Source: Elusimicrobiota bacterium (GTDB lineage: Bacteria; Elusimicrobiota; Elusimicrobia; UBA1565). Taken from it: 39,103 nt of DNA. This document shows, in pieces, positions 15,430-34,100 of this stretch. The translations under genes were made by a program, and so were the position numbers. The stretch is taken from contig JACRDU010000130.1 of NCBI GenBank assembly GCA_016218495.1, forward strand, positions 1 to 39,103, read 5' to 3'. The notes below the pieces were generated by a model, which saw only the letters and a program-made list of their open reading frames with translations, ran no database searches and was not told the DNA's origin. Positions within the stretch are counted from its first letter, which is position 1. Every line of letters begins with the position of its first letter.

Positions 15430-16500
15430 CTACCTAGGGACGACGCGCCAGGACACGCCGGGGGGCGGCGCCGCGTCGAGCGGGAACCCCGCGTCGACGG
15501 CGTCCGAGGGGAGCGGGCTGAACCTGCCGAGGATGGCCGAGAACCGGCCGCCCCGCGCGTCGACATAGAGGGATTCCGTCCAGCGCGCGTCGTCGAGCCC
15601 TCCCTCGTCGGGCAGGGAGAACCTCACGAGGAAGACGCCGTCCAGGGGGCGTCCCGCGCCGTCTACGATCCACCCGCGCCATTCGCGCGTCCGGGAGGCG
15701 GAGACCTCCCGCGGGGCGGGGCCGTTGAATTCGACTACGATCTCGGACCCGTTGCGCTCGATGCTGTAGGGCGCCTGGCGGGAGAGGTCGAGGACCACGC
15801 GGGAGACCGGGTTCTGTCCGGTCTTGAACGGAGCCGAGCGCACGGCGCGCAGCACCCCGCCGGGGCGCGGCGCGGGGGCGGCGGCGGCCGCGTGGAAGGT
15901 GCCGGGGAAATCGATGACGAGGCGCGGGGGGTCCTCGGCGAGGAAGACGGCGGGTTCGACGGGGCGGTCCAGGCTGATGACGGCGCGGTCGGGCTCGGAG
16001 CGCACCGCGAGCAGGCTGGCGAACGGGCTGCGGGGAGCGGGCATGCGCAGCACGGGCACGGAGAGCGGCATGGCGAGCGGGGAGAGCGCGTCGCGCATGT
16101 CGGCGGCCTCGGGTTCATGGGGCGGCGGCGCGGGCACGGCGGCGCGCCCGCGGGGAGGGGTGAAATCCACGACCACCGCGCCCGCGGCCTCCCTGGCCGT
16201 CCCTTCCATCGGGGCGGCGAGGTCGAATACCACGCGCAGCACGGAGGGGTCTTCTCCCCAGGGCGCGGCGCGCATGCGGAGGATGGCGCCGGTCCCGGCC
16301 CAGGTCCGCTCGGGGATGGCGATGGCGGTCGCTTCCAGGTCCACCACGAAGCGGTCGGGGTCCCCCAGGCGGAAGGCGCGGAAGCGCGCCGGGGCATCCA
16401 GAGCCAGCCGGCCGCCCGCCGCACCGACGGAGACTCCTGTCAGGTTCGCCGCGCCGGCGACGGGGACGACCGTCAGGAACGCCGCTAGAAGGCAGTTCAT
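15430..16500 (-). CDS. Periplasmic protein with two AMIN-like domains and a shared C-terminal beta domain
   Basis: 356 aa. Signal peptide at 1-18 (MNCLLAAFLTVVPVAGAA). The first AMIN-like unit lies at about 20-115 (RFVVDLEATAI ... VLRVVFDLAAP ... AVVVDF) and the second at about 165-260 (RAVISLDRPVEPAVFLAEDPPRLVIDFPG ... VSRVVLDLSRQAPYSIERNG). AMIN domains bind peptidoglycan and occur in amidases and in type IV pilus/secretin proteins. Residues about 270-356 are a different domain (GWIVDGAGRPLDGVFLVRF ... WTESLYVDARGGRFSAILG). It recurs near the N-terminus of the LysM protein at 18422-19144. TAATAT ends 6 bases before the ATG. Assignment of AMIN domains is by pattern. The specific cell-wall role is unknown. 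Confidence 0.82.
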   Translation of the reverse strand: MNCLLAAFLTVVPVAGAANLTGVSVGAAGGRLALDAPARFRAFRLGDPDRFVVDLEATAIAIPERTWAGTGAILRMRAAPWGEDPSVLRVVFDLAAPMEGTAREAAGAVVVDFTPPRGRAAVPAPPPHEPEAADMRDALSPLAMPLSVPVLRMPAPRSPFASLLAVRSEPDRAVISLDRPVEPAVFLAEDPPRLVIDFPGTFHAAAAAPAPRPGGVLRAVRSAPFKTGQNPVSRVVLDLSRQAPYSIERNGSEIVVEFNGPAPREVSASRTREWRGWIVDGAGRPLDGVFLVRFSLPDEGGLDDARWTESLYVDARGGRFSAILGRFSPLPSDAVDAGFPLDAAPPPGVSWRVVPR

Positions 16501-16618: not shown

Positions 16619-18391
16619 TCAGAACTGGATTTTGAGGCCGACGCCGGTGCGCGTGTCGGAGTAGTTGAACTGGTCGGCGAACAGGGAGTAGCGCTGCAGG
16701 AGCTGGAAGTTGACGTCGGTGGAGAGCCAAGGGCGGACCTTATACTCGACGCGGGCGCCGTAGCTGTAGAGGTCGTCGCGACGGTTGCCGGAGACGGTGC
16801 CCGCCGTCGTCGATGTGGGATAGCGGTCGGTCTCGAAGGAGGCGTCGCCCGACAAGGCCAGCTTGCGCCAGCTGTGCGCGAGGCCCAGGGAGAGGCCGGT
16901 CGCCACATAATGACGGTTCCCCGCGAAGGTGGTCTCGTTGACGGAGCGGAAGAGCCGGGTGCGGGCGTCGGTCCGGCGCGCGGCCTTGATGCGCAGGTCC
17001 ACCGCGGTCAGCAGGTTCGTGGCCGTGGTCGGGCTCCCCGCGGGCGGATTTTCATAGCGGCGGCGCTGGACGTCGGCTTGGATGCGTCCGCTCACGCGGG
17101 GGCCGAGCACGCCCTCCAGCCCGAGGCCGAAGCGGTCGGAGTGGGAGTGGTCGCGGCGTCCCGCGGAGTAGTGGACGATCTCGCGCGCATAGGCTAGGAA
17201 CGTCTTGGTCTTGGGCGCCAGCTTGATTCCCGCCTCGCCTCCGAATGACGCCTCGTAGCGGTTCAGCGAGGAGGCCATCGTGGGGTCGAGGTACTTGTGC
17301 AGCGCGTGCCTGGCGGCGACGCGGAAGACGAACCGCCGGCTGCGTTCGAAGTCGAGGGCGAAGGAGGATTCCAGCATCGTGCGGCGCTGGCGGGCCACCA
17401 GCTCCGAGAAGGCGGGGTCCTCGGTGTTGAGATAGCTCTCGGAGAGGGTCAGCCCCCCCCCGCGCTGGCCGCGCAGGTCGTAGCCGACCTTTATGTCCTG
17501 GTCGACGGCGTTGTTGGTCTTGGGCTGGTTGGAATAGTTGGTGGCCTTCGCGGAATAGAGGCCGCGCAGCTCGCTGCGCTTGCTCAGAGGGAGCTTCCAC
17601 CCTGTCCCCAGCTCGTTGGTCGTGATCCAGGAGCCAAGGACGCCGCCTCCGGTCCGCCGGCCGTCGGGCTTGTCGGGCGGGACGAGGTAGATGTTCGAAT
17701 CGTAGGTCTGGGAGAGGCGGTAGAAGGGATGCAGCTCCAGCACCAGGCGAAGCTCCGGGCGCCCGACGCGGGAGAGCTTGGAGACCCCGGCGGCCAGCGC
17801 GGCAAGCGGGTCCCACTCGGGCTCGGCCGCGACGGGGGGCAGGGGGGCGGGCGCAGGCTGGGGCGTCTGCGCCGCCGGGGCCGAAGGCACGGAAGGCGGC
17901 GGAGGGGAGGCCGGCGCCGGCGCTTGATCGGGCGCGGCCGGGGCGGCGGGGGACGGAGGCGCGACGGGAGCCGCCGCCCCGGGCAGCAGGCCGGCCTGAG
18001 GACCCGTCAAGGCCAGGAAGCGGCCGCTCTCGACCAGGATCGGGGCCTGTCCCGGTGCGGCCACCTCGACGGCCCCGGCGTTCACGAGCAGCCGGACCTG
18101 TCCGTCCACGGCGGCGGTGGTGAAGTCGTCGCCGGCATCGACCCGGATCAAAGTGTCCGAGACCAGCAGAGTCGCGGCGCCCTGGGCGACCGCCGCGCGG
18201 GCCCCGACCGGCACTTCGTAGGCGGCCGCCCCGGGTTCGAGGGCCATGGCCTTGCCGTCGATGCGAAGCCACAGGTAGTCCCCGAAGGCGACGACGGCCA
18301 GCCCCGCCGGGGGCTGGGCGGAGGCCGGGCACGGGGCGGAGGCCAACAGGAGGGCGGCCGCTACTCCGGCGTTTCTAAATTTCCCGTTCAT
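16619..18391 (-). CDS. Outer-membrane beta-barrel with FecR-like N-terminal domain
   Basis: 590 aa. Signal peptide at about 1-25 (MNGKFRNAGVAAALLLASAP, cleavage after ASA). Residues 26-115 resemble a FecR-type small beta domain (VPVGARAAVAQGAATLLVSD ... VRLLVNAGAVEVAAPGQ). Residues about 118-195 are a Pro/Ala linker. From about 210 to 590 alternating aromatic/hydrophobic strands with charged turns form a beta-barrel of the BBP2/capsule-porin kind (YDSNIYLVPP, LRGLYSAKATNYSNQPKTNN), ending in KIQF, a typical BAM-recognised terminal Phe. It should sit in the outer membrane. An ATG at 18403 overlaps the TACAAT box and would extend the N-terminus by four residues, so the ATG at 18391 is used. Last gene of the kinase cluster, 30 bases after the LysM gene. 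Substrate unknown. Confidence 0.85.
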   Translation of the reverse strand: MNGKFRNAGVAAALLLASAPCPASAQPPAGLAVVAFGDYLWLRIDGKAMALEPGAAAYEVPVGARAAVAQGAATLLVSDTLIRVDAGDDFTTAAVDGQVRLLVNAGAVEVAAPGQAPILVESGRFLALTGPQAGLLPGAAAPVAPPSPAAPAAPDQAPAPASPPPPSVPSAPAAQTPQPAPAPLPPVAAEPEWDPLAALAAGVSKLSRVGRPELRLVLELHPFYRLSQTYDSNIYLVPPDKPDGRRTGGGVLGSWITTNELGTGWKLPLSKRSELRGLYSAKATNYSNQPKTNNAVDQDIKVGYDLRGQRGGGLTLSESYLNTEDPAFSELVARQRRTMLESSFALDFERSRRFVFRVAARHALHKYLDPTMASSLNRYEASFGGEAGIKLAPKTKTFLAYAREIVHYSAGRRDHSHSDRFGLGLEGVLGPRVSGRIQADVQRRRYENPPAGSPTTATNLLTAVDLRIKAARRTDARTRLFRSVNETTFAGNRHYVATGLSLGLAHSWRKLALSGDASFETDRYPTSTTAGTVSGNRRDDLYSYGARVEYKVRPWLSTDVNFQLLQRYSLFADQFNYSDTRTGVGLKIQF

Positions 18392-18401
18392 CGAAGGTGG
18401 C

Positions 18402-18407
18402 ATTGTA
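18402..18407 (-). promoter_or_regulatory. -10-like box TACAAT before the FecR/barrel gene
   Basis: TACAAT on the minus strand ends 10 bases before the ATG at 18391, giving a leader of only a few bases. It overlaps a false upstream ATG at 18403. It could serve as an internal promoter that lets the outer-membrane protein be made independently of the upstream kinase genes. Confidence 0.5.
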
Positions 18408-18421
18408 ACACGAAATCCTAT

Positions 18422-19144
18422 CTATTTCGGAGGCGCCGGGATAACCAGCTTCTGGCCCACGGTGAGCTCTCCGGCGCGCTGGAGGCGGTCGCTGTTGGCC
18501 TGATACACCAGGATCCAATGACGCTCGTCACCCAACGCCTTGAAGGCGACCGTGCGCAGCGTGTCCCCCTTTTGGGCGACGTAGATCCTCGGGCCTTGGG
18601 GCGCGGCGGCGGGAGCGCCGACGGCCCGCTCGAGAGCGTCCAGGCGCCGCTTGTTCTCCTCGTTCTCCTTACGGGCCCGGTCCGCTTCCGAGCGGGCCTG
18701 CTGCAGCTCCCTCTGGACCCCGGCCGGTTCCGCCGGGCGGGCGGACGGCTCGGCGGGCCGGGCTGCCGGGGCCGCCGACGCGGCGCTTCCCGGCCGGTCC
18801 AAGGCCGGCAGGCCGTCCGCGAACGCGGCCCAGCCCATCCCCTTTGGGGCGTCCACCGAAAGCCGATAGGCTCCGCGCAGCACGGAGTCGGGCAGCCGCT
18901 GCGTGCCGCCGAGCAGGGCCGAGAACCGCCCCCCCTGCGCCCGCACATAGCGCGACTCGCTCCAGGCCGGCGCCGGGCCGGAGGCGTCGTCGAAGATGCG
19001 GAAATGCAGCAGATAGGAGCCGTCGAGCGGGCGGCCCTGGGCGTCGAAGAGGGTGCCGGAGTAGCGCAGCGTCGGCACCGGCTCCGCCGCGCTCAAGGCG
19101 GCGGCCTGCAGGCTTGCAAGAAAGACGGCGGCGAAGAGTCTCAT
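18422..19144 (-). CDS. Secreted LysM protein
   Basis: 240 aa. Signal peptide at 1-20 (MRLFAAVFLASLQAAALSAA). Residues about 25-110 are a beta domain (YSGTLFDAQGRPLDGSYLLHF ... WSESRYVRAQGGRFSALLG) also found at the end of the AMIN protein. An Ala/Pro linker and a short coiled coil (QRELQQARSEADRARKENEE) follow. The C-terminal LysM domain (IYVAQKGDTLRTVAFKALG ... YQANSDR ... LTVGQKLVIP) should bind peptidoglycan. TGA-G-ATG junction with the upstream receiver/propeller gene, and a GGGGGGA Shine-Dalgarno lies inside that gene's end, so the two are coupled. It probably acts in the periplasm as a cell-wall-attached part of the signalling cluster. Confidence 0.88.
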   Translation of the reverse strand: MRLFAAVFLASLQAAALSAAEPVPTLRYSGTLFDAQGRPLDGSYLLHFRIFDDASGPAPAWSESRYVRAQGGRFSALLGGTQRLPDSVLRGAYRLSVDAPKGMGWAAFADGLPALDRPGSAASAAPAARPAEPSARPAEPAGVQRELQQARSEADRARKENEENKRRLDALERAVGAPAAAPQGPRIYVAQKGDTLRTVAFKALGDERHWILVYQANSDRLQRAGELTVGQKLVIPAPPK

Positions 19145-19145
19145 C

Positions 19146-20351
19146 TCATCCCCCCTGCGCCCGTTCAGAGAATGCTTTCAGCGGGCGTTCGTAGACGACG
19201 GCCCGTCCATCGCGGGCGAACCAGACCGTCCCGCCCCTGACGGCGAACGCCGAGAGGGGCTCCGGCCCGCGGTCCAGCGCGGGCAGGGCGTATACGGCGA
19301 GCACGGTCAGCGACTTGTCGAGCCGATGACGGTAGATCCTGCGCGTCTCGGAATCCGCGGACCAGAGGTAGGCGTCGTCCTTGTGCAGCCCGGTCGGGGA
19401 TTTCGCCGGGGCCTTGAAGCTCTCCAGCACGACGAGGTCTCCCTCCCCCCCGTGGCGGTAGACGCGCCCGAGCGCCGCGTCCGAGGACCACAGATAGCGG
19501 CCGTCCCAGAACAGGCCCGAGGGGCTCGGACCCGGGGCGGGGTGGCTCCGGACGAGCGAGAGCGAGGCGTCGAGGCGGCGCTCCTCGATGACCTTGCGCG
19601 AGGCGTCGGCGACGAACATCCGCTCCCCGGAGACAGCCAGCGCGGTCAGGGTGGTGTCCGGCAGATGCACCGAGCGCACCGCCTCCAGCTTTCCGCCCGC
19701 CAGCCGGTACTGGTAGACGCTCTGCGAGACCCAGTCCGCCGCCCACAGCGTCTCCCCGGCCCAGACCAGCGCGGTGGAGTGCTGGTGGGATATCGGGTAA
19801 TCGCGCCCGGGCTCGGAGCCGCGCGCGGCCCAGAACCCGGCGACGACGGCGAGCAAGGCGGCGCAGGCCAGGGCCGTCCATAGGCCCCGGTCGCCGCCTT
19901 CCCCGACGGCGGCGTCCTCCGGCCGGAGCGCCGGCGGGGTGCGCAGAGCCGGGGACGGCAGCCGCGGGGCGGAGGCGGGCGCGGGCATCCGGCCACCATT
20001 GAGTATGCGCTCCACGGTCTCGACGAGCTCCTGGTTGCTGAACGGTTTGGACAGATAGTGGCTCGCCCCGAGCCGCATGACCTCGACGGCCGATTCCACG
20101 CTGCCGTAGCCGGTGACCATCACCACCGGCGTGGCCTTGTCGCGCTCGCGCAGCGCCCGCAGGATCTGAGGCCCGTCCATTCCCGGCAGCCGCATGTCGA
20201 GGAGGACCAGGTCGGCTCCGTCCTTAGCCAGGAACTCCAGCGCCCCGGGCCCGTCGCCGGCCTCGAAGACCTGGTGCCCGATGCGGTTCAGGACGTTGGC
20301 CAGGGCCATGCGCATGTCCGGCTCGTCGTCTACCACTAGGATGCGTGCCAT
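19146..20351 (-). CDS. Response-regulator receiver domain fused through a TM helix to a beta-propeller
   Basis: 401 aa. Residues 1-118 are a canonical receiver domain: acidic pair Asp8-Asp9, phosphoacceptor Asp52 in LVLLDMRLPGMDG, Thr80 in MVTGYG and Lys102 in LSKPF. Residues 119-156 are a Pro-rich linker. Residues 157-176 are one transmembrane helix (LWTALACAALLAVVAGFWAA). Residues about 190-400 contain five similar repeats of about 40 residues with the pattern L-x-x-x-G-x-x-L-W-x-x-D-x-x-x-x-x-V/I-Y (GETLWAADWVSQSVYQYRL, GRYLWSSDAALGRVYRHG, DAYLWSADSETRRIYRHRL). They look like beta-propeller blades. With the receiver in the cytoplasm, the propeller would be periplasmic. There is no DNA-binding or enzymatic output domain. 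It starts 10 bases after the giant kinase stop, with AGAGG upstream, so it is its likely phosphorylation partner. Confidence 0.88.
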   Translation of the reverse strand: MARILVVDDEPDMRMALANVLNRIGHQVFEAGDGPGALEFLAKDGADLVLLDMRLPGMDGPQILRALRERDKATPVVMVTGYGSVESAVEVMRLGASHYLSKPFSNQELVETVERILNGGRMPAPASAPRLPSPALRTPPALRPEDAAVGEGGDRGLWTALACAALLAVVAGFWAARGSEPGRDYPISHQHSTALVWAGETLWAADWVSQSVYQYRLAGGKLEAVRSVHLPDTTLTALAVSGERMFVADASRKVIEERRLDASLSLVRSHPAPGPSPSGLFWDGRYLWSSDAALGRVYRHGGEGDLVVLESFKAPAKSPTGLHKDDAYLWSADSETRRIYRHRLDKSLTVLAVYALPALDRGPEPLSAFAVRGGTVWFARDGRAVVYERPLKAFSERAQGG

Positions 20352-20361
20352 GTTGCCTCTT

Positions 20362-23300
20362 CTATCCTTCCTTTGCCGGCAGCGTCAAGGCCGCGGTGCT
20401 CCCGGCCCCTTCCTTGCTGGTGAACTCGAGCGTCCCGCCATGGGCCGCCGCGATGCGCCGCGCCGTCGCCACGCCCAAGCCGATTCCGCCCGGCTTCGTC
20501 GTGAAGAACGGACGGCCGACCTCCTTCAGATGCTCCGGCGCCGTCCCGGCGCCTTCGTCGGAGACCCCGAGGCGGACGGCGCCTTCCGGGGCTCCGGCGG
20601 CGCTCAGGAGCACGCGCCCGCCCTTCTTCGACGCCTCGACGGCGTTGACGACCAGGCGCGCCAGCGCCTCGGCGAGGCGCTCGGGGTCCGCGTCGAGGGC
20701 CGGCAGGCCGGCCCGGCAGTCCACCTCGATGCGCACGCCCTTCTCCTTGGCCGCGGCCGCCGACGAAGCGGCGGCGCGCGACAACGCGGCCTCGGGACGG
20801 ACGGCCGTCCGGTTCAGCGGCAGCGGCCGCGTGAATTCGACCAGGTCCTCCAAGCGCTCGCGCAGGGTCCCGATGGCCCTCAGCATGGCCTCGAGCGACG
20901 AGCGCTCCTTGCCCCGCACCAGCACGCTGGACAGCCGGTCTTCCGCCAGGCTCTGCATGATTCCGAGCGGGTTGCGCACCTGGTGGGCGATGCCGAACAC
21001 CAGGTCCCGCAGCTCGCTCTCGAAGGCTTCGGGCGGGAGCGGGCCCTCAGAAGGCCCCTTGCGCAGGTGCTTGACCATCCGCGCGCGCAGCTCCCGCACC
21101 TCTTCGCGGGACTTGCGCGACTCCTCTTCGGCCGCCGCGAGCCGGGCTTCCCGCTCCTGGAAGCTCCGCTCCCTGGCGGCCAGCTCGGACTCCGCCGCCG
21201 CGATACGGCTGCGGACCTTCTCGTCGGTGCCCTTCAGGGTCGAGTCGAGCTCCCTGCGGCGCGCCTCGAACTCTGCGGCGCGCTTCTCGTCCTCTCGGAC
21301 CCGGCGCGCCGATTCCTCGGATTCCCGCTTCTCCAGCGCGGCCAGCCGCTCGGCGAGGGCGTGCTCGCGTTCCGCCAGCCTCTGCGCGTCGGCCAGGCGC
21401 TCCTTCTCCAGCTCCGCGACCCGCGCCTGCGCCTCGGCCTCGGCCTTGAGCGCCGCAGCCCGCTCGGTCTCCAGGCGCCGGGCCGCGTCGAGGCGCTCGT
21501 CTTCCGCCTGCCGCGCCGCCTCCTCGCGCTCCGCCGCCGCCCGTTCCGCCGCGAGCAGACGCTTCTCGGCGGCGGCCCGCTCCTCGCGGGCCCTGCGGCG
21601 CTCGGCGTCGAGCCGTCCTTCGAGCTCGCGCTCCAGCGCGGCGCGCTCCTCGAACGCGCGCGCTTCCGCCTCCGCCGCCTGCTTGCGGGCCCCCGTCTCG
21701 GCCGCCGCCGCGCGCTCGCGCGCCTCGGCCTCGGCCCGAGCGAGTGCCTTGCGGTGCTCCTCGTCGCGGGACGCCAGTTCCTTGTCCAGGCGGGCCCGTT
21801 CTTCGCGCCGGACGGAGCGCTTGAGCTCCTCTTCGCGCCGCACGAACTCCCGCTCCAGCGCCGAGCGCTCCTCGGAAAGGCGCTCGTCGCGCTTCGTCAG
21901 CTCGTCGCGCAGGGCCTCATGCAGCTCCGAGCTCGAGCGGGTCAGCTCCAGGCGCGCCCGGTCCTGGGACTCGGCCGCCTGGCGGAGCATCTCCTCTTCA
22001 CGCGCCTTGAAGGCGCCCTGCATCTCCTCTTCGCGCCGCAGGTGCTCATGGCGCATCGCGGCCTCGCGCTCGCGCAGGTCGCGCTCCGACTCGGCCCGCC
22101 GGGCTTCCACGGCCTCGAGCGCCCGCCCCGCCTCGTCGCGCTGGAGCTGGGCCTGCTTCTTGAGCTCGAGCTTCTCCGCCTCGAGGGCGGCCTGGCGCCT
22201 GGCGAATTCCTCGCGCTGGACCCGCTCGCGGCGCAGCAGCGCCTCGGCGGCCTCGGACTCCTCGGCGGCGGCCCGCCGGCGCAGTTCCTCGCGCCCCAGC
22301 TCGACCTCGGCCATCGCCGCCGCCCACTCGTCGCGCAGGGCCTTGCGGTCCGCCTCTAGCCGCGCGGCGGCCTCGGCCGCCGCCCGTTCCGAGGCCCGGC
22401 GCAGCTCGGCCTCCCGCTCCGCCGCAGCCTTTTCCAGGGCCGCCTCGCGGTCGCGGAACTCCTTGAGCCAGGCGTCCTTCTCGGCCTCCAGGCCCTTGCG
22501 GCTCTCCGCGTCCTCGGCCTCGCGCTGGACGCGCTCGCGCTCGATGACGGCCAGGCGTTCCTTGGCGGCCGCCTCCAAGGACTCATGGCGCCGGCGGTAG
22601 TCGGCCTCGAGCGATGATTCCTTCTGGCGCAGCAGCTCGTCGGCGCGCTTGCGCGCCGCTTCGGCGTCCCTCACCCGCTTCTCGAGGTCGTCCTGACGCG
22701 ACCGCATGGCCAGCTCGAGCGCTTCGCGCTCGACCGCCAGGGCTTCCAGGTCGGTGCGGCGGGCCTGCTTGAGCTCCTGCTCCTTGCGCGCGAGCTCGGC
22801 GCGCAGCTCCGCCTCGCGCCTGGAGAAGGTCTCTTCGAGCTGCTGTTGGACCAGCTCGGCTTCCCTCTCGCGCCGCTGCACCTCGCCTTGCCTGGCGGTC
22901 TCGGCCTCGGCCGCCGCGGCCCGCTCGGCCCGCAGCGACTCGCGTTCCCGCTCGAGCTGCGCCCGGAGCTGGCGCTCGCGCTCCAGGAAGGCGGAACGGA
23001 GTTCGGCCTCGCGGCCGGAGAAGGCCTGGGTCATGGCCGCTTCGCGCTCGCGCAGGTGGTTCTCGATGTCCGTCCGCCTCTGGTCGGTCTCGCGCATCCG
23101 CCGTACGGCCTCGGCCTCCAGGTCCTGCTGGCGGGCCTTGAACTCCTCTTCGAGCGAGGCCCTCCGGTGGGAGGTCTCCTCGGTGAAGCGGCGCCTCTCG
23201 TCGGCCATCTTGGCGGCGGAGTCCGCCTCGCGCTGGGAAGCAGCCTCCCGCAGCTCGGCCTCGCGCTGCGAGAGGAGCTTTTCCGTGGCGGCGGCGCGTT

Positions 23301-26300
23301 CCCGGGCCCGGGCTTCGAGGGCCTCCCGGGCGCCTTCGAGCTCTCTCTGAGACCTGGACAGCTCCGCCTCGCGGGCGGCGAACACCTCGGCAAAGGCAGC
23401 CTCCCGTTCGGCGACGGCCTTATCCGCCGCGGCACGGGACGCCTCGAGCTCCTGGAGCCGCCGCGCCTTGTCCGTCTCGAGCTGCTGGCGTTCCTTCTGG
23501 AGCTCGGCCTCCCGCCGCTTGACGCCCGCCTCGAGCGTGCGGCGTTCGTTGGCGAAAGCCTTGCGGAGTTCGAGCTCGCGCGCCTTCAGCGACTGCTCGG
23601 CGGCGGCCTCGCGGGCCGCCGTCGACTCGGCCAGGGCGGCCTCGCGTTCGGCGAAGGCCTTCTCGTTCATCGTCTTGACGGCGTCCGCCTCGTGCTGCCG
23701 CCGGGCGGCCTCTTCCTCGAACTGGCGCTGCTCCCGGGCGAGGGCCTCCTCCCGCTGGCGGTGGGCCGCGTCCAACCGGCGCCGGTCCTCCTCGATCGAC
23801 CCGCGCAGCTCCTCCTCCCTGGCCGCGAAGGCCAGGCGCAGGTCGTCGGCGCGCCGCTCGAGCTCGCGCTGCGCGCGCTCTTCCGCGGACTTGAGCTGCC
23901 GGTCCGCCTCGGCCCGAAGGGACTCGGCCTCACGGCGCTTCTGGGAATACTCCTCTTCGAGCCGCGCGCGCTCGGCAGCCAACGCCTCGGCCCGCTCCTT
24001 CTCCAACAGTTCCAGCGAGCGCTGCCGTTCCGCGAAGACCCGCTGCAGCTCGGCCCGCTCGCCTTCCAGCTCCACGCGCCGGCGTTCGAGGCGTTCGAGG
24101 GCCTGCGCCCTCTCCCGCTCGGCGGCGGCTTCCCGGCGCCGGAAGTCCGACTCGAGGTCGGCCTCGCGTTCCCGGACCTCCTCCTGAAGCTGGGCCGCCC
24201 TCTGTTCGAGCTCGCGCAGCTTGCCCGCGTGCGCCGCCTCCAGCAGCCTCTTCTCCTTCTCCATCTCCGCCTGCACGCGCCGCGAGGACTCATCGTTCCA
24301 TGCGGCTTCCTTCTGGGCCATGCGCTCGGTGAAGCCCTTCAGCTCGCCGGCGAGGCGTTCGTCGGACTCTTGCTTGAGGAGGTCGGCCTTGTGCTGCCAT
24401 TCCGCCATCAGGTCGGATTCCATGCGCAGGTAGGTCCGCTGCAGGCCTTCCTCGCGCTGACGGTACATCTGGTCGAGGGCCGTGCGTTCGGCCGCCTGCT
24501 TTTCCTGCAGCGAGCCGATGAGGGCGCTCTCGCGCCGGCGCAGCTCCTCGCGCAGGGCCTCTTCCTTGGCCCGAGCATCTTCTTCGAGCGCGCTGCGGCG
24601 CTGCTCCGACTCGGCGAGGATGCGCTGGCTCTCCGCGGCGGTGTCCGCCATCGACCGGCGATGGGCCTCGCGCAGCGCCTCGCGTTCGACGGCGAGCTTG
24701 CGCTTCTCTTCGGCGAGCCAGGCCGCGCCCCGCGCGTCATGGTCGGCGCGGGCCTCTTCGAGCTTCTTGGCGGCCTCGGCGTCGAGCGCCGACCGGAGCG
24801 AGGCCAGGCGCGCCTCGGCCCGGGCCTGCGCTTCGAGGGCCTCCCCGCGCAGGCGCTCGGTCTCGGCCGCCAGGCGGGCGCGATAGGTCTCGCGCTCCTC
24901 ATCGACCTTGGCCATCAGCTCGCCCTCGCGGGCGCGCCACTGGGTCTCGAGCGACTGTTCGCGGTCGAGGAAGGACTTCTCCAGCCGCGACTCCTTGTCC
25001 CGCAGGGCCGCCAGCATCCGCTGGCGGTCGCTCTCGAGGTCGGCGGCGCGCTTCTCGAGGTCCTCTTCGAGGGCGGCCCGGCGCGACTCGAGCGCGGCCT
25101 GGGCCTCGAGCGCCGATTTCTCGTCGCGCTGGCGCGCGCGTTCGGCGAAGGCGTCGTCGGCCTCCTTCAGGTGGCGCTTGAGCGCCTCCCGCGACTGGTC
25201 CTCCAGGAGGGCCGCGCGGTGCGCCCAGTCGTTCTTCAGCTGGGCCTCGAGGCTGAGGTAGTTCTGGTGCAGCGTCTCTTCGCGCTTGCGGAAGATGTCG
25301 TCGAGCCCCACCCGCTCGCGCCCGAGCGTCTCCTGCACCTCTTCGTTGAGGCGGCGCTCCTTCTGACGCCATTCCTCGTTATGCTCCGTCTCGCGCCGGC
25401 GGTTGTACTGCTCTAGCGCCTCGCGGCGCTGGGCCAGCTCCTTCTCGCGCTGCTCGGCCTCGGCATTGAGCGTCTCGAGGTGCGCCCGGGCCTGGGCCTG
25501 CAGCTGCTCGCGCTCGCGGATGAGCCCGCGGCGCTGGCGCTCCATCCAGTCCTCCTTCTCCTTCTCCGCCTGGGCGGCGATGTCGCGCCGGACCGCTTCG
25601 ACGCGGCCGGAGAGCGTCTCTTCCAGGGCCGCGTTGCGGGCCGCCGCCGCCTCGCGCTCCTTCTGGCGCTCGGCCTCGATGGCCTGGACTGCCGCCGCGA
25701 AGCCCACCGCCTGCTCTTCGAGCGCGGCGCGGTGCCTGTCGGCTTGCTCACGTTCCTTGACGGCGATGAGCTGCTGCAGGGAACGCTCGGCCGCGAGGTG
25801 CTTCGCGTCGCGCTCCGCGGCGCGGCGGCGCTCGGCCTCGTGGAGCTCGACGCGCTCGGACTCCCAACGCCGCTCGCGCGCCTGGAGCTCTCCCCAGAGG
25901 TTCTGCTTCTCGGCTTCGAGTGCGGTCGCCGCGTCCTGCAGCCTTCCGGCTTCGAGCGCCCGCTCTTCGAGCCGGTGCTCCAAGTCGAGGCGCTCGACCT
26001 GAGCGGCCTCCTGCTGCGAGCGCTGGCGCCCCAGCCATTCCGCGTCGCGGCGCTCGGCGTCGAGCTGGACCTGCCGGAGGGCGTCCTGCATGCGGCGGTC
26101 GGCTTCGGCCCGGATGGTCTGGCATTCGAGGCGGTGACCGTCGACGAGCGCCGCTTCGCGCTTCTGCGCCCGCCCTTCGATCTCGGCCTCGAGCTTCGCG
26201 AACTGGCGCTTCATCTCCTGGCTGCGGGCGAGGAGCTCTTCCTCCCCCTGGCGGCGGCGCTGGTCGAACTCGGCCCGGACGCGTTCGAACTCGACCTTCG

Positions 26301-27930
26301 AAGACCGCCGCTCCTGCTCGAGGGCGGTCTCGTAGCGGCGGATGACGTCGGCTTCGCGCTCGTGCCACTCGCTGTCGAGGTTCTTCTCTTTGGCCACGTA
26401 TTCGGTGACGACGCCCTGCTTCCAGGTCCGGAACTGCTCCTCCATGCCCGCCCGGGCCCTTTCCAGCTCGGCGACTCGGGCCTGGTAGGCCTCTTCGAAC
26501 GCGCGCTCCTTCTGGCGGACCTGCTCGGCCAGCGAAGCCCGCTCGGCCTCGACGGCCTTCTCGTGCTCGCTGAGCAGCTGCACCTTCCGGCGGGTCCAAT
26601 CGTCGCGCAGCTCGTTCTCGCGGGCCAGGTGGCTCTCTTGCAGCTCGACGGTCCGCCGGTTGAAGGCCTCCTCGAGGGAAGCCTCGCGCTGCAGCGCGCC
26701 CGACTCGGCCTCGGCGGCCCGGGATGCGGCCTCGGCTTCGAGCGTGCGGCGGGTCTTCTCGACCTCCCGCGCGAAGTCCGACTCCCTGCGGGCGAGCTCG
26801 TTGACGCGCGCGGAATGCTCCTCTTGCAGCACGGCGGCGCGCTTGCGCGCCTCTTCGACGGCGGAGGCTCGCTCCTTCTCGAGGTCCTCTTCGAAGCGGG
26901 CGAGCAGGGTCTGTTCGAGGCGCTTGTGGCGCTCGACCAGGCCGCGCTCGAGCTCGGCGGTCCGGCGCTCGTTCTCCGAGACCCGGGCGGTGAAGTCGGC
27001 GTCGAGCTCCTGGCGGCGGCGCTCGAGGTGGGCCTCGACCTCGGAGGTTCGGTCGGCGAGGGCCCTCGCGCGTTCGTCGAACTGGGCGTTGACGGCCCGG
27101 TCGAGCTTCTCGCGCGCTTCCTTGGCGCGCTCCCAGAGCCCGTTCTCCACGTCGGCCCAAGCCGCCTGCAGCTCGGCCTCGCGCTTCGCGTAGCGCTCCT
27201 GGAGCTCCATCTCCCGGGCCTTGTAGTCGCGGGTGAGGCGCTCTTCGCGCTCACGCAGCTTGAGCTCGGAGTCCTGGGTCTGCGCCGCAAGCACGCGCTG
27301 GAACTCCTCGTTCACGCGCTTGAGGCGGAGGATTTCGGATTCCTTGAGTTCCAGCTCCTTCTCCCGGTTCTTCAGGGTGGAGAGGATTTCCTCATCGCGG
27401 CGGCGGCGCAGCTGGAGCACCATCTCCTGGTCCTTCTGGAACCGGGCCACCAGCGCGGCCTTCTCGGATTGGGACTGGCGGAGCTCGGCTTCGCGCTGCT
27501 CGAGCACCTTGCGGACCTCGCCCCACTGGTGCTCCTTGTGGGCGTGGGTGGCCTTCCAGGTCTCGACCTGGGCGGCCAGGGCGGCCAGCTCGTCTTCGGA
27601 CTGGCGGCGCTCACGCTCGACGCGCGCTCGCTCCTCCTCGCGCACTTCGAGCCTGACCCGGTCCTTCCAGCGTTCTTCCTTCTGGGCGGATTCCCGCCGC
27701 TCGATCTCCCAGCGTTCTGCCTCCTTCTGCCACACCTCGAGCTGCTTGCGGTATTCCGCCGACTGGGTTCGGGCTTCGTGCTCGCGCGCCTGGGCCTCCT
27801 GGAGGGTGCCCTTGAGGCGCGACGAGAGGTCCTGGAGGTCGCGGATCGTGGCCACGGCCCCCCGGATCGCAAGTCGCGCTGCTTCGACGTCGTTTATCTG
27901 CGCGAACGCTTCTTCATCCCAGGGATTCAT
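20362..27930 (-). CDS. Giant coiled-coil histidine kinase
   Basis: About 2,522 aa. Residues about 30-2290 are an almost unbroken, highly charged heptad-type sequence rich in Glu, Arg, Ala and Leu (RREAEL, REEELRR and similar). There is no signal peptide, no membrane helix and very little Pro or Gly, so it is a cytoplasmic coiled coil. The end is a complete histidine kinase: H-box FGIAHQVRNPLGIM with the phospho-accepting His near 2316, N-box LARLVVNAVEAS (Asn about 2429), G1 VSDEGAG (about 2457-2463), F-box RPFFTTKP and G2 GGIGLG. A fully helical rod of that length would be roughly 0.3 micrometre long. Start ATG 27930 has GGAGA at good spacing; ATG 27936 is an alternative. The N-terminus (MNPWDEEAFAQINDVEAARL) is a short non-repetitive cap. 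It lies between the small kinase and the receiver/propeller gene. Confidence 0.9.
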   Translation of the reverse strand: MNPWDEEAFAQINDVEAARLAIRGAVATIRDLQDLSSRLKGTLQEAQAREHEARTQSAEYRKQLEVWQKEAERWEIERRESAQKEERWKDRVRLEVREEERARVERERRQSEDELAALAAQVETWKATHAHKEHQWGEVRKVLEQREAELRQSQSEKAALVARFQKDQEMVLQLRRRRDEEILSTLKNREKELELKESEILRLKRVNEEFQRVLAAQTQDSELKLREREERLTRDYKAREMELQERYAKREAELQAAWADVENGLWERAKEAREKLDRAVNAQFDERARALADRTSEVEAHLERRRQELDADFTARVSENERRTAELERGLVERHKRLEQTLLARFEEDLEKERASAVEEARKRAAVLQEEHSARVNELARRESDFAREVEKTRRTLEAEAASRAAEAESGALQREASLEEAFNRRTVELQESHLARENELRDDWTRRKVQLLSEHEKAVEAERASLAEQVRQKERAFEEAYQARVAELERARAGMEEQFRTWKQGVVTEYVAKEKNLDSEWHEREADVIRRYETALEQERRSSKVEFERVRAEFDQRRRQGEEELLARSQEMKRQFAKLEAEIEGRAQKREAALVDGHRLECQTIRAEADRRMQDALRQVQLDAERRDAEWLGRQRSQQEAAQVERLDLEHRLEERALEAGRLQDAATALEAEKQNLWGELQARERRWESERVELHEAERRRAAERDAKHLAAERSLQQLIAVKEREQADRHRAALEEQAVGFAAAVQAIEAERQKEREAAAARNAALEETLSGRVEAVRRDIAAQAEKEKEDWMERQRRGLIREREQLQAQARAHLETLNAEAEQREKELAQRREALEQYNRRRETEHNEEWRQKERRLNEEVQETLGRERVGLDDIFRKREETLHQNYLSLEAQLKNDWAHRAALLEDQSREALKRHLKEADDAFAERARQRDEKSALEAQAALESRRAALEEDLEKRAADLESDRQRMLAALRDKESRLEKSFLDREQSLETQWRAREGELMAKVDEERETYRARLAAETERLRGEALEAQARAEARLASLRSALDAEAAKKLEEARADHDARGAAWLAEEKRKLAVEREALREAHRRSMADTAAESQRILAESEQRRSALEEDARAKEEALREELRRRESALIGSLQEKQAAERTALDQMYRQREEGLQRTYLRMESDLMAEWQHKADLLKQESDERLAGELKGFTERMAQKEAAWNDESSRRVQAEMEKEKRLLEAAHAGKLRELEQRAAQLQEEVREREADLESDFRRREAAAERERAQALERLERRRVELEGERAELQRVFAERQRSLELLEKERAEALAAERARLEEEYSQKRREAESLRAEADRQLKSAEERAQRELERRADDLRLAFAAREEELRGSIEEDRRRLDAAHRQREEALAREQRQFEEEAARRQHEADAVKTMNEKAFAEREAALAESTAAREAAAEQSLKARELELRKAFANERRTLEAGVKRREAELQKERQQLETDKARRLQELEASRAAADKAVAEREAAFAEVFAAREAELSRSQRELEGAREALEARARERAAATEKLLSQREAELREAASQREADSAAKMADERRRFTEETSHRRASLEEEFKARQQDLEAEAVRRMRETDQRRTDIENHLREREAAMTQAFSGREAELRSAFLERERQLRAQLERERESLRAERAAAAEAETARQGEVQRREREAELVQQQLEETFSRREAELRAELARKEQELKQARRTDLEALAVEREALELAMRSRQDDLEKRVRDAEAARKRADELLRQKESSLEADYRRRHESLEAAAKERLAVIERERVQREAEDAESRKGLEAEKDAWLKEFRDREAALEKAAAEREAELRRASERAAAEAAARLEADRKALRDEWAAAMAEVELGREELRRRAAAEESEAAEALLRRERVQREEFARRQAALEAEKLELKKQAQLQRDEAGRALEAVEARRAESERDLREREAAMRHEHLRREEEMQGAFKAREEEMLRQAAESQDRARLELTRSSSELHEALRDELTKRDERLSEERSALEREFVRREEELKRSVRREERARLDKELASRDEEHRKALARAEAEARERAAAAETGARKQAAEAEARAFEERAALERELEGRLDAERRRAREERAAAEKRLLAAERAAAEREEAARQAEDERLDAARRLETERAAALKAEAEAQARVAELEKERLADAQRLAEREHALAERLAALEKRESEESARRVREDEKRAAEFEARRRELDSTLKGTDEKVRSRIAAAESELAARERSFQEREARLAAAEEESRKSREEVRELRARMVKHLRKGPSEGPLPPEAFESELRDLVFGIAHQVRNPLGIMQSLAEDRLSSVLVRGKERSSLEAMLRAIGTLRERLEDLVEFTRPLPLNRTAVRPEAALSRAAASSAAAAKEKGVRIEVDCRAGLPALDADPERLAEALARLVVNAVEASKKGGRVLLSAAGAPEGAVRLGVSDEGAGTAPEHLKEVGRPFFTTKPGGIGLGVATARRIAAAHGGTLEFTSKEGAGSTAALTLPAKEG

Positions 27931-28098: not shown

Positions 28099-28119
28099 AA
28101 ATCCCCTGGAAAGGGGTTT
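28099..28119 (-). terminator. Weak hairpin at the end of the small kinase gene
   Basis: On the minus strand AAACCCCT-TTCC-AGGGG(A)TTT forms an 8-bp stem with one bulged A and a 4-base loop, starting within the stop codon. It is followed by few U residues, so it is at most a partial terminator or an mRNA end-stabilising structure. Confidence 0.35.
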
Positions 28120-28804
28120 ATAAGGGAAGGCGGACCACGGCCGTGGTCCCGTTTCCGGGGGCGCTGGCTAGCTCCAGGGCTCCTCCGCTGTCCTCAAGGA
28201 GGCGGCGGGTCAGATAGAGCCCCAAGCCGGTGCCGTTCGGCTTGCTCGTGAAGAACGCCGTCCCGGCCTTGGCCAAAGTGTCCCCGTCCATGCCGGCGCC
28301 GCTGTCGGAGATGGTGGCCTTCGCCTCCGTCCGGGAGGTCTCCACCCGAACCCTCAGCGTGCCGCCGCGCGGCATCGCCTCCAAGGCGTTGACGAGGAGG
28401 TTGTGCAGCGCCGTTTCCAGGGCCCGTTCGTCGCCGGCCGGAGCGGCGCGGCAGGAGAGTTCGGCCTCGAGGCGCACCCCGTGCGACACGAGCATCTTGT
28501 CGAGGAGCCTGAGCTGGCGCTCCAAGAGGCGCGAAAGGTCGCAGGGGCCCAGCCCGGACGCGGGCGCCGCCGCGAAGTCCAGCAGGGCCTGCGCGGCCTG
28601 AGCGGCCTGGCGTGCGTTGCGCAAGATGGTTTCGAGCCCGTCCTTGAGCTCTCCGGCGGGTTCCATGTGGGAGAGGGCCAGCTCGGCGGTGGAGGAGATG
28701 ACGTGGAGCGGACCCCTGATGTCGTGGGCGAATGAGCCCGCCGCGCGGCCGACGGCGCTCAGGCGTTCCAACCGCGCCAGGGCCTCCTTCGTCGGAGCAT
28801 CCAC
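28118..28804 (-). CDS. Small soluble histidine kinase without sensor domain
   Basis: 228 aa. It consists only of the kinase core. The H-box is GSFAHDIRGPLHVISSTAEL with phospho-accepting His27. The N-box is LHNLLVNALEAMP, G1 ISDSGAGM, F-box TAFFTSKP and G2 GTGLGLYLTRRL. There is no membrane segment or sensor domain, so it acts in the cytoplasm and must receive its signal through a partner. The core is similar in order and motifs to that of the giant kinase just downstream, which suggests a paralogue pair that could form heterodimers. The start is GTG 28804, because TGC-TATACT ends exactly 6 bases upstream. A frame reaching upstream through an ATG in the palindrome is rejected because it would place the promoter inside the gene. 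Confidence 0.88.
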   Translation of the reverse strand: MDAPTKEALARLERLSAVGRAAGSFAHDIRGPLHVISSTAELALSHMEPAGELKDGLETILRNARQAAQAAQALLDFAAAPASGLGPCDLSRLLERQLRLLDKMLVSHGVRLEAELSCRAAPAGDERALETALHNLLVNALEAMPRGGTLRVRVETSRTEAKATISDSGAGMDGDTLAKAGTAFFTSKPNGTGLGLYLTRRLLEDSGGALELASAPGNGTTAVVRLPL

Positions 28805-28810
28805 GCGCCG

Positions 28811-28819
28811 AGTATAGCA
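28811..28819 (-). promoter_or_regulatory. Extended -10 promoter of the small kinase, leaderless
   Basis: On the minus strand TGC-TATACT (28819 to 28811) is followed by exactly 6 bases and GTG. The TGn motif is the extended -10 element. The expected -35 region lies inside the 28828-28898 palindrome, so a protein bound there could control this promoter. Confidence 0.65.
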
Positions 28820-28827
28820 CGCTCGAA

Positions 28828-28898
28828 CGGTGTCAGACATTCGAAAGTTTCGGAAACCGGAGCGCGGAACTTCCAAAACTTTCGAATGTCTGACACCG
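28828..28898. repeat. 71-bp long palindrome with TGTCTGACACCGG ends
   Basis: Perfect 23-bp arms (28828-28850 and 28876-28898). The right arm reads AAACTTTCGAATGTCTGACA then CCG. The hairpin continues inward after one mismatch with GGAA/TTCC. It fills most of the divergent spacer between the small kinase and the gene at 28955. A half copy occurs at 16542-16556. It may be a REP/MITE-like mobile repeat, a bidirectional transcription barrier or a large operator. Confidence 0.85.
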
Positions 28899-28916
28899 GT
28901 GGCACTGGTGGCGGTC

Positions 28917-28945
28917 TTGCGGGGGAGAGGAAACACGGCTACAAT
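28917..28945 (+). promoter_or_regulatory. Promoter of the 28955 gene, nearly leaderless
   Basis: TTGCGG (28917-28922), a 17-base spacer and TACAAT (28940-28945). The ATG at 28955 begins 9 bases after the hexamer, so the leader would be about 0-3 bases. It starts 19 bases outside the palindrome. Confidence 0.65.
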
Positions 28946-28954
28946 CTCTGCGAG

Positions 28955-29848
28955 ATGAAACCGGAATCCACCGCGGCCGTCCCCGATCCCGTCGAGGTCC
29001 GGGAAGGACTTTGGAAGGTGCGTTCGGCGCACCCGCGCGGCCTCTTCCGAGTCGGCATCGGCAAGAAGCACGCCCAGGCGAACTCGCTCTTCCTGGAGGT
29101 GAACGGCAAGCGCCGCTTCGAGGTCGGCAACGACTGCGACACCTGCCACTTCTGGTTCAAGATGCTGCAGGAGCCGAAGGCGCTGGCCCAGAAGAAGATC
29201 GTCAACCTCCCGAAATCGCTGGCCATCCCCCGCCCGATGGGCGTCGAGGTGCTGCGCGACATCCAGCCTATGATCGACCTGATGGACAAGGGCGAGCATT
29301 ACGTCTTCAGCACCCAGCTCAACCTCGTCGGGCCCTATAGCGGCGAGGACGAGAACTCCTATTTCTACAACGCCGAGTTCCAGGAGATCTGGGACGTCGA
29401 GGACCCGGCGGCCGAGGACCTCCTTTCCGGCTGGGAGCACTACGAGGGCCGGACCCCGCGCGTCTTCCGCCAGGGCGAGATTCTCGAAAAGCAGTTCGAC
29501 TTCGTCATCCCCCTGGTCCCCTCCTCGAAGCTCAAGCAGGAGAACATCCGGCTCTATCAGCAGATGATCCAGGGCGGCGACCGCCCCAAGGTCCTGCTGC
29601 TCGGGTTGCTGCAGAGGGCCGTGCCCGAGACCGTCTCCTCGGGGCGCCTGAAGAACCTGCACTCCTTCTTCGCCGGCTTCATCCTGGACGGCCACCACAA
29701 GCTGGCCGCCTATCAGCGCGCCGGGGTCCCGGCCAACTGCATCGTCATCCTGGAGCCCAAGGCCAGCAAGTACTACCTCCTCGAGGGAGAAGGCGCGAAC
29801 TCGCGCGTCCGGCTCGAGGAACGCCTCGCCTCCCTCGCCGCGTCCTGA
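28955..29848 (+). CDS. Unrecognised cytoplasmic protein with CDTC and DGHHKLAAY motifs
   Basis: 297 aa, no signal peptide or membrane segment. I do not recognise the family with confidence. Visible features are a CxxC pair in VGNDCDTCHFWFKML (about 60-74), which could bind metal or be redox-active, and FILDGHHKLAAYQRAG near residue 250. The latter resembles the substrate/nucleotide-binding turn of ParB/sulfiredoxin-like proteins (xDGHHRxxAxxxxG). A central region is rich in Asp/Glu and aromatics (EDENSYFYNAEFQEIW). The start is ATG 28955 after a good promoter; an ATG at 28886 lies inside the palindrome and is rejected. The following gene starts 1 base after the stop, so they form an operon. 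Confidence 0.8.
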   Translation: MKPESTAAVPDPVEVREGLWKVRSAHPRGLFRVGIGKKHAQANSLFLEVNGKRRFEVGNDCDTCHFWFKMLQEPKALAQKKIVNLPKSLAIPRPMGVEVLRDIQPMIDLMDKGEHYVFSTQLNLVGPYSGEDENSYFYNAEFQEIWDVEDPAAEDLLSGWEHYEGRTPRVFRQGEILEKQFDFVIPLVPSSKLKQENIRLYQQMIQGGDRPKVLLLGLLQRAVPETVSSGRLKNLHSFFAGFILDGHHKLAAYQRAGVPANCIVILEPKASKYYLLEGEGANSRVRLEERLASLAAS

Positions 29849-31167: not shown

Positions 31168-34100
31168 ATGAGGCGGACCGAAAGGCCTATCCTCGCCGAG
31201 CGCCTCGCGCTGGCCGCTATCCTTATTGTAGGCGGCTCCCTGCCCCCCGTCGCCTTCGGCCGGACCGCATCCTATAGCGTCCGCGCGGCCGACGCCGACA
31301 TCGCCCTGACGGCCGCTGAGGAGATGGAAATCCTCCTTTCCGGCCTCCAGGAGCAGTTCGCCGCGCAGCGCCAGGAGCTCGACGCCGCCCCTCTGGTCCC
31401 CCTCTCCGCCCCCACCGCCGAACAGAAGCGCAAGATCGCCGCAGCGCACGTGCCCGAGTTCAAGAAGCTGGGCGTCCTCGGATCGCTGGGCGCCCTGCGC
31501 GAACGCTTCTCCGCGCTGCGCCGCCGCGTCGACGCCGAAGACCTGCCGGCGGAGAAGAAGGCGGCGCTGGCCGGCCGCCTCGACAAGCTCGTCGAAATCG
31601 TCGAGCGCCTGAAGGCGGCCGAAGGGAAGACCCCCGGCTCGGTCCCCCCCGCGGCCTTGGCCCGCCTCGCCGAGGCCGCCCGCACGACGGCCCCGGCCGG
31701 CTCGCTCAAGCCCCTGGAGGAGTTCTCCAAGGACGTGGCCAGCGGCCGGCAGGCCCCGCAGGCCGCGCTGGCGCAGCTCTTCGAGAACGGCCGCCTAGCG
31801 GGCAGCGACATCGCCGCCGAGCCCGTCATGGCCGACGCCCCGTCCGGGGGCGCCCAGTCCCTCGTCAACGCCGCTCCGGCGACCGTGCGCATCGACGGCC
31901 AGGTGCCGGACCTCCCCGCCGCGCTGGAGCCCGCGCCGGCCCGGGCCGCGGCCTCCGACGGGCCCAGCGTCTGGGACCGGCTCTCCCAGACCTTCGGCGC
32001 CGCCGTGTCCCCCTTCGAGAAGCTCACGCCCCAGGGGCGCCAGGAGGCCTTCGAGAAGGACCGCGCCGCCTTGCGCAAGGAGCTGCACTCCCTGGCCGTG
32101 CAGGCCTTGGCCGAAGGAGGCGTGGACGCCGCCGGCTTCAAGGACCTCGACAAGGCCGATACCCGCCTGAGCGCGCTGCGCGGCGAGACCCTGCGGGGGC
32201 TGGGCTTCGACAAGCCCGCGGCCGACGCGGCGGGGGCGAAGAAACAGCGCGACGCGCTGACCACGAAGTCCCCCGCGCTGTCGCTCTATATCGCCAAGCG
32301 CGGCCTCTACCAGGACTACGTCAACGAGGCCCTGCACCAGAAGGCCCTCAAGCCCGGGATGCGGCTGCAGCCCTGGGAGGTCGGAGTGGACGGCGGCGCG
32401 GAGACGGCCGTGGCCTACGCCTCCCGAAAGGATGGCGACCGGGAGTTCTGGGGCATCCTGCGCGAGTTCAACGACGGCAGCACGCGCTTCGAGGCCGCCG
32501 AAGGGAACACCACCCTCATCGTGGTGAAGAGCCCCAAAGACCACCGCGAGGTCCGGACCACCGGCGAGTTCGACGATAAGGGGGTCCAGAAGCTGGCCCG
32601 GGCCTCGGTCATCGACACGCGCACCAGCCGCCGCATCAGCGAGGAGCTCACCGACTTCGCCAAGAAGCTGATGGTGCGCACGGACTTCGGGGACGACGGG
32701 ACGCCCGTGCGGGTCACCACGGTGGACGGCGCCGCGCGCCGCCAGAAGGTGGAGGAGCGCGAAGGGACCAAGGTCGTGCGCACCCTGGCGCTCGACGAGG
32801 CCACCGGGCGGCGGACCATCGAAGACCAGAAGGCCCGCACGCGCACGGTCATCGAGAAGGACGGGAAGACCACCGTCACCTCGCTCGACGGCGGCGGCGA
32901 GCAGCGCGGCCGGGTCGGCGAGGACGGGGCCTTCACCCTCGAATCCGTGGTCCAGCGCGACGGCAGCGTGATCGAGTTCGTCGGGAATCGCGTGGCCCGC
33001 GTCAAGAAGGACGGCAAGGTCCAGGTCTACGAGGTGGACTTGAGCCGCCTCACCGGCGGCCTCAAAGGCAAGGCCCGAGAGGACGAGTCCTACGCCGTCG
33101 CGCGCGACATCGTGAAGGCCCTGGGCTGGGACGACAAGGACGGCAACCGTTCGCGCCCCATCCATAACTGGCTCTTCGACACCTGGGACCCGGGGGACCG
33201 CATCGCCTCGGTGTCGCTCAGCATCGCCCCCGACGGCAGCTTCCAGAAGGTCTACCGCAACAAAGACGGCACCATGCGCGTGGAGCGCGCCAACTTCATG
33301 CAGTCGACGAGCTACGGCGGCCGCTCGGAGTGGGCGCTGGTCATGACCCGCCCCATCCAGACCGACCGCGAGGGCCGCGGCGCGGTCGACCCGCGGCGCT
33401 GGCGCGAGTACCTGGCCTCCGGCGGCTACAACCAGTGGCACTCGATGTTCGGCATGGAGGACTCCGGCTGGTTCTCCAACGCCAAGTCCATCGAGACCGT
33501 CTCCCTGCAGCGCTACGGGTGGAAGGGGACGGTGGACGCCGGCGGCTGGTCGAGCAACGGGACCGAACAGAAGGAGCGCATCGTAAACGAGGTGGCGGGC
33601 ACCTCCACCTTCGGCATCATCGGCACCGCCATCCACGAGACCCCGGTCGTGGGCCATGTGCTCAAGTTCGGGGAAGGCACCGCCTCGAGCATCTGGGGCT
33701 CGCTGCAGGCCGCCCCGCAGACCATCGTCTACGCCATCAGCGGCGACGGGCGCTACGGCGCCTCCGCCGCCGCGAACTGGAGCAAGGTCGCCCCGATGAA
33801 CTGGGCGGTGGGCGGCACCGACGGCCAGCTGGACCGGCTCAACAAGGACGCCCTGCAGTACGTGGTCGACGAGGCGTCCGAACGGCGCGTCGCCGGCCTG
33901 CGCCAGGCCGGCTATACCCAGGAGAACACCTCGGCCAGGGAGTGGTCGAAGCTGACCAACCGCTGGGACGGCCAGGGCAAGTTCGCCTCCGAGGCCGACT
34001 GCACCGCCAAGTACCAGGCCTGGTACTGCGAGCGCTTCCGCTACAGCACCGACGAGCTTTCCGGCTCGCTGACCCGGTTCACGATGTCCGGGACGGCGGA

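Follow-up and report, generated by a model that had tools for sequence, protein, structure and literature searches.

A giant coiled-coil histidine kinase and its probable receiver-propeller partner in Elusimicrobiota

Introduction

Two-component systems normally carry signals from the envelope to DNA. In the stretch of DNA analysed here, referred to as the window (39,103 nucleotides of contig JACRDU010000130.1 from an Elusimicrobiota bacterium), a histidine kinase core is found at the end of a coil of about 2,290 residues, which raises the question of what so long a coil does for a kinase and where its signal goes. In the initial annotation it was proposed that the coil might gauge cell dimension, sense tension or curvature, or scaffold a filament. 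Neither such a kinase nor the regulator encoded beside it was described in the literature that was searched, most subscription papers being outside its coverage. A kinase of cytoskeletal size acting on a regulator whose sole output domain appears to be across the membrane would represent signalling in the reverse direction.

The reading frame and its orthologues

The frame on the minus strand is unbroken from an ATG at 27930 (MNPWDEEAF...) to a stop at 20362, encoding 2522 residues within a stop-to-stop frame of 2571 codons, in agreement with the single frame of about 2,520 codons originally reported. The protein is divided as follows.

20362..27930, minus strand: giant coiled-coil histidine kinase, 2522 aa (complete orthologues 2058-2859 aa)
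27796..27930, minus strand: N-terminal cap, residues 1-45 (MNPWDEEAFAQINDVEAARLAIRGAVATIRDLQDL...), the best-conserved part apart from the kinase
21058..27795, minus strand: hendecad coiled-coil rod, approximately residues 46-2291 (periodicity, orthologue alignment)
21016..21057, minus strand: Pro/Gly linker (GPSEGPLPPEAFES), residues 2292-2305, predicted to be flexible (sequence, model)
20968..20997, minus strand: H box FGIAHQVRNP with the phospho-acceptor His 2316 (alignment, HisKA profile)
20371..20688, minus strand: HATPase_c catalytic domain, residues 2415-2520 (profile, model, ZraS as best PDB match)

Among the 72 HATPase matches in the source genome the longest open frame after this one is 1472 aa. 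When 38 relatives were searched a related core was found in eight besides the window, and a phylum-wide search added one more. Five relatives have complete orthologues in a single frame (2548, 2859, 2434, 2058 and 2262 aa), with both the cap and the kinase kept; three of the remaining orthologues run off contig ends and one (G030) is frameshifted. The single-frame orthologues come from independent assemblies of other species, which rules out an assembly or repeat artefact and answers the two faults that had been foreseen for the initial annotation, an assembly error and a frameshift splitting the kinase from the coil; they are also the other long-coil HisKA/HATPase proteins that it had suggested looking for. 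A chance open frame in GC-rich DNA is ruled out by the conservation together with the codon positions, which diverge as in a coding gene, the third fastest, along most of the rod.

The rod and the N-terminal cap

The cap has the consensus MNPWDEEAFxxINDxEAARLALRGAVATIRDLQ, and no known domain or solved structure was found to match it. A scan of 84,980 species with the cap pattern gave no matches outside Elusimicrobiota apart from bins labelled 'bacterium'. Weak matches to the cap profile in other families (E about 1e-9, in frames near 1,000-1,200 aa), which may be unrelated coils such as SMC, were left out.

Proline is absent from residues 4-2292 of the protein, two thirds of which are Glu, Ala, Arg or Leu. 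The highest mean Kyte-Doolittle value of the rod in a 19-residue window is 0.84, and there is therefore no membrane segment, as had been annotated. The hydrophobic lags of the rod peak at 11, 18, 22 and 29, its local period has a median of 3.65, a value shared by five orthologues, with near-zero spectral power at 3.5, and the local amplitude is 2.25 as against 1.38 +/- 0.07 in shuffles. By lags, local period and spectral power the rod is a hendecad coil (11/3), and the heptad-like repeat described at first was rejected. Hendecads give nearly straight coils (PMC9858780). Leucine and the other hydrophobic residues lie on one face of the rod (53% in the core direction against about 5% opposite, the phase having been fitted without the test residues), and opposite charges are enriched at i+3/i+4 while like pairs are depleted. 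If extended as one straight helix the rod would be about 333 nm long, which fits the cytoplasmic rod of ~0.3 micrometre first envisaged. Given the coil pattern, and that HisKA kinases are dimers, the rod is presumably dimeric.

Conservation is uneven along the rod. The proximal part, which extends to approximately residue 1240 in the window protein, is 38-67% identical over approximately 1,200 residues and nearly gap-free, the sole exception being one 258-residue insertion in the orthologue of genome G004. The distal part varies in length, with identities of 0.26-0.44 in many blocks. Rod length differs by about 800 residues between close relatives, and the giants of two genomes of the same genus differ by 376 residues.

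Among known coils, Scy of Actinobacteria has over 1000 residues, nearly all in hendecads, and the coil cores of FilP and Scy are Ala-rich (PMC9858780). The giant resembles these in form only, as an extended hendecad rod, whereas its core is Leu-rich with Ala mostly outside it, a kinase is attached and it belongs to another phylum. It also differs from DivIVA, GpsB, FilP and Scy in having no GYDxxEVD motif at the N-terminus ahead of the coil; membership of the DivIVA/FilP group was rejected on the absence of this motif, and Pfam gave no DivIVA match at E<=1.

The kinase core

A complete histidine kinase core is contained within the C-terminal 230 residues, and the phospho-acceptor suggested in the initial annotation, His 2316, is upheld by the alignment. 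This histidine is invariant in nine aligned orthologues, across which the N, G1, F and G2 motifs are also kept. In the window protein HATPase_c is matched with E=1.9e-18 and HisKA weakly, at 0.00085, which is under the Pfam cut-off; HisKA is present in all nine relatives, with a best value of 1.8e-7. The alignment, the HisKA profile and the helices of the model agree in placing the H-box histidine on a two-helix DHp. In most HisKA kinases Glu or Asp follows the histidine. Here the residue is Gln in all nine aligned cores and in a further fused core (L043), and HQ is also seen in the FleS/FlrB kinases.

The model of the kinase end, built from nine sequences (mean pLDDT 83.5), runs from the last part of the rod helix through a break to the DHp and the catalytic domain, and its closest solved structure is ZraS (9jfj). 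At the break (residues 38-43 of the modelled fragment) the pLDDT falls below 50, and the hinge between rod and DHp is predicted to be flexible. Beyond the kinase core the giant has no Pfam domain; of the features of membrane sensors, neither a transmembrane segment nor a PAS, HAMP or Cache domain was found in it. The cores of the fused form, in which coil and kinase are in one chain, group as one clade with a support of 100. In NCBIfam the core of the giant matches AtoS (1e-37) and ZraS (1e-36), both far below the equivalog cut-offs. With the ZraS/AtoS/NtrB-type HisKA kinases it shares the H, N, G1, F and G2 boxes and the DHp-CA fold. Unlike them it has no membrane span or sensor, 2,290 coil residues precede its core, Gln follows the histidine, and the regulator that partners it is no sigma-54 activator. 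Apart from the Gln, the catalytic core is that of an ordinary HisKA kinase; the architecture is not ordinary.

The receiver-propeller regulator and neighbouring genes

The giant is followed on the same strand by a response regulator and then by three genes for envelope proteins.

19146..20351, minus strand: response regulator with a receiver (1-117), a membrane helix (~156-177) and a beta-propeller (183-398) (profile, model)
18422..19144, minus strand: secreted protein with a short coil and a weak C-terminal LysM match
16619..18403, minus strand: BBP2_2/EpsL-like outer-membrane beta-barrel
15430..16500, minus strand: AMIN-domain protein; it and the LysM protein have a C-terminal domain in common
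28118..28840, minus strand: small soluble histidine kinase encoded upstream of the giant, 240 aa counted from MSDTVRACY
10697-11749: PilT/PilU-family ATPase, 382 bits

The regulator is directly downstream of the kinase in all fused loci in which the downstream gene is covered; using our labels for families (f) and genera (g), it directly follows the kinase in f1, f3, g14 of f2, f8 and f14, and in a paralogous pair of genome G004. It is about 400 aa long and 50-71% identical among the fused loci. The receiver is matched by Response_reg with 9.4e-32 and has an invariant D52 and K102, with T80 nearly so, as in response regulators. The model (mean pLDDT 81.8) shows a receiver, a helix and a propeller, and in Foldseek it matches receivers and propellers such as those of glutaminyl cyclases. 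No DNA-binding output domain was found in the regulator, which has the transmembrane helix and the beta-propeller instead. It is probably the phospho-acceptor partner of the giant kinase. Because one membrane helix parts it from the receiver, the propeller would be expected to be periplasmic. Matches to the propeller at E<=1e-10 were found in 141 of the 341 Elusimicrobiota genomes, and some of these lie in ~1,000-aa frames. In a PADLOC search for defence systems the kinase had no match and the regulator matched weakly, in the receiver region only; with no match for the kinase, a defence-system identity was rejected.

Genes for LysM, AMIN or outer-membrane barrel proteins lie near the kinase-regulator pair in every lineage sampled; at the f8 and f14 loci and at the paralogue locus of G004 the flanking genes include LysM proteins, some of which show barrel-like matches. 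Between the small kinase and the giant, genus g4 has an NtrC-type sigma-54 regulator (L034:15092-16462, minus strand; L035:3526-4911, plus strand). The PilT-family ATPase is syntenic with the fused form and with a kinase-free form of the coil in f1, f3 and f2. In f8, ftsA follows 3-7 kb downstream, on the strand of the kinase, in all 13 genomes in which the kinase and ftsA are on one contig, while in f1, f3, g14, f6 and f14 the two never share a contig. The family to which the window belongs has ftsA on a different contig, away from the giant, so that any link to division rests on f8.

Kinase-free and split forms

The fused form was found in f1, f3 and genus g14 of f2. Most of this sister family f2 has instead, at the same genomic position, a kinase-free coil of approximately 400-935 aa that carries the same cap; this slot is flanked by the conserved gene corresponding to window 28886-29848 and by SDR, PilT and 11746-type genes. 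The retention of the cap-coil in the syntenic slot without a kinase indicates a role for the coil by itself. The kinase may have been gained in some lineages or lost in f2, the trees being unrooted; in the tree of the cap region, also unrooted, a single origin of the fused form was neither shown nor rejected (AU p=0.48).

In f8, which was reached through the phylum-wide core search, cap-coil, coil-kinase and receiver-propeller are separate genes, all upstream of ftsA (L120-L126, L130). The cap-coil and coil-kinase genes overlap, by 16 nt, at six of the six loci measured. The kinase-free upstream protein is 1107-1285 aa long, has the cap at its very N-terminus (profile E ~3e-9 to 1e-8) and shows near-hendecad periods of 3.59-3.66 across most of its first half. 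The coil-kinase, 1021-1574 aa from the start codon at the six loci, has a different coil, heptad-like with a period of 3.53 as against 3.62-3.65 for the rod of the giant. The summed lengths of the two (2128-2839 aa) match those of the fused proteins (2058-2859 aa). Most simply, cap-coil and coil-kinase would constitute one working unit, a single chain in the fused form and two coupled chains in f8.

The kinase is also found without a long coil, with only 291 aa in f14 (L127) and in frames of 218-258 aa in f6. Since these kinases pair with the same regulator, the coil is dispensable for the core reaction. Fused, split and kinase-free versions within one phylum provide a natural series on what the long coil adds.

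Genome G004, which carries a giant, also has at L128:3806-6886 (minus strand) a paralogous coil-kinase of 618 aa whose N-terminus is different, and next to it, downstream, a receiver-propeller regulator of its own. The cap-coil frame is broken at several loci, by the frameshift in G030 (L038), by an in-frame stop near residue 598 on a separate contig in G015 (L042) and, on a complete chromosome with the kinase-free form (CP096137.1, L062), by its division into overlapping frames; these breaks may be sequencing errors or real.

Discussion

On balance the giant would seem to be a scaffold-borne cytoplasmic kinase that signals to an envelope-facing regulator in the membrane. In this account a long dimeric rod, made of the cap and the hendecad coil, would assemble or be anchored at one place in the cell, plausibly the division site or a pole, and the HisKA/HATPase core on its flexible linker would thereby be concentrated there. 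The core would phosphorylate the membrane-anchored response regulator encoded beside it, and phosphorylation of the receiver would alter the state of the propeller, taken as periplasmic. The propeller could then act on peptidoglycan-bound and outer-membrane partners such as the LysM, AMIN and BBP2 proteins, so that an envelope process would be regulated via protein contact and not transcription. The ftsA synteny of f8 suggests a role in division and makes that role directly testable; from it and the PilT neighbours of f1-f3 we favour, with moderate confidence, an envelope function tied to division or the poles, a role in pili being the main rival. A fuller proposal is more tentative: that the locus encodes an inside-to-outside machine specific to Elusimicrobiota, in which a rod of one chain or of two translationally coupled chains delivers the kinase to the pole or the site of division, where, without transcription, a receiver-propeller in contact with peptidoglycan and outer-membrane proteins is switched. 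Counting against the main reading are the second kinase upstream of the giant, the f6 and f14 kinases that have no long coil, and the Gln after the histidine.

There is a precedent in Caulobacter, where the coiled-coil scaffold PodJ positions the histidine kinase PleC and sets its activity; the two are unrelated proteins, a disordered region binding a PAS domain (PMC8980812). A scaffold is likewise joined with a kinase here, but within one chain (f1, f3, g14) or as the products of two overlapping genes (f8), and no PAS domain is present.

The coil might alternatively be a pole-organising scaffold from which the kinase-regulator pair controls type IV pili. AglZ and FrzS of Myxococcus, in which a receiver is attached to a coiled coil, would be a parallel, as two-component domains on long coils, although they have no kinase core and are shorter than the giant. 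The PilT/PilU-family ATPase syntenic in f1, f3 and f2 speaks for this reading. However, the conserved neighbour in f8 is ftsA, the LysM, AMIN and barrel genes are not specific to pili, and f2 keeps the PilT synteny without a kinase, so that proximity to PilT may only mark the slot; a pilus function appears unlikely.

A mechanical or dimensional sensor, in which the rod would gauge length, tension or curvature and strain would set the activity of the kinase, has in its favour the very long predicted rod, the lack of any other input domain in the giant and the almost gap-free proximal rod, and yet it appears more doubtful still. Lengths that differ by hundreds of residues inside a single genus, and a linker that the model shows as flexible, speak against a ruler or strain gauge: total lengths span 2058-2859 aa, and the low-confidence Pro/Gly linker that parts rod from DHp argues against rigid transmission. 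Moreover, the f6 and f14 kinases work without a rod, and the rod of f8 is two proteins. Of the initial annotation there thus stands the kinase joined to a scaffold-like coil with no sensor or membrane domain, while the cell-dimension and tension readings are not supported; the downstream regulator and the split and kinase-free forms had escaped it. A purely passive coil, whether a tail or a nearly neutral extension of an ordinary kinase by repeat expansion, is very improbable, since against the variable C-proximal rod and the coil-free kinases of f6 and f14 stand the conservation of the proximal rod with almost no gaps, the persistence of cap and coil without a kinase in f2, and the long coils on this type of kinase in f1, f3 and g14 and, with another periodicity, in f8.

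Other conserved genes at the locus

Three further genes of the window, all on the plus strand, are conserved across genomes or have relatives beside the same slot. That at 28886-29848 encodes a protein of ~300 aa, 52-72% identical, whose gene stays next to the slot throughout the order; Pfam and NCBIfam gave no match for this protein, and its 'DGHHKLAAY' presumably resembles the ParB/sulfiredoxin motif. The gene at 11746-12795, syntenic with PilT across the order, encodes a secreted protein in which cysteine units of the CPxG type recur and for which Pfam gave no match. At 31168-36876 there is a 1902-aa protein, also without a Pfam match, whose relatives are found beside the same slot in other genomes; its gene contains a 60-bp tandem repeat (34642-34844), and the protein has a long run of Gly and, at the C-terminus, a hydrophobic segment.
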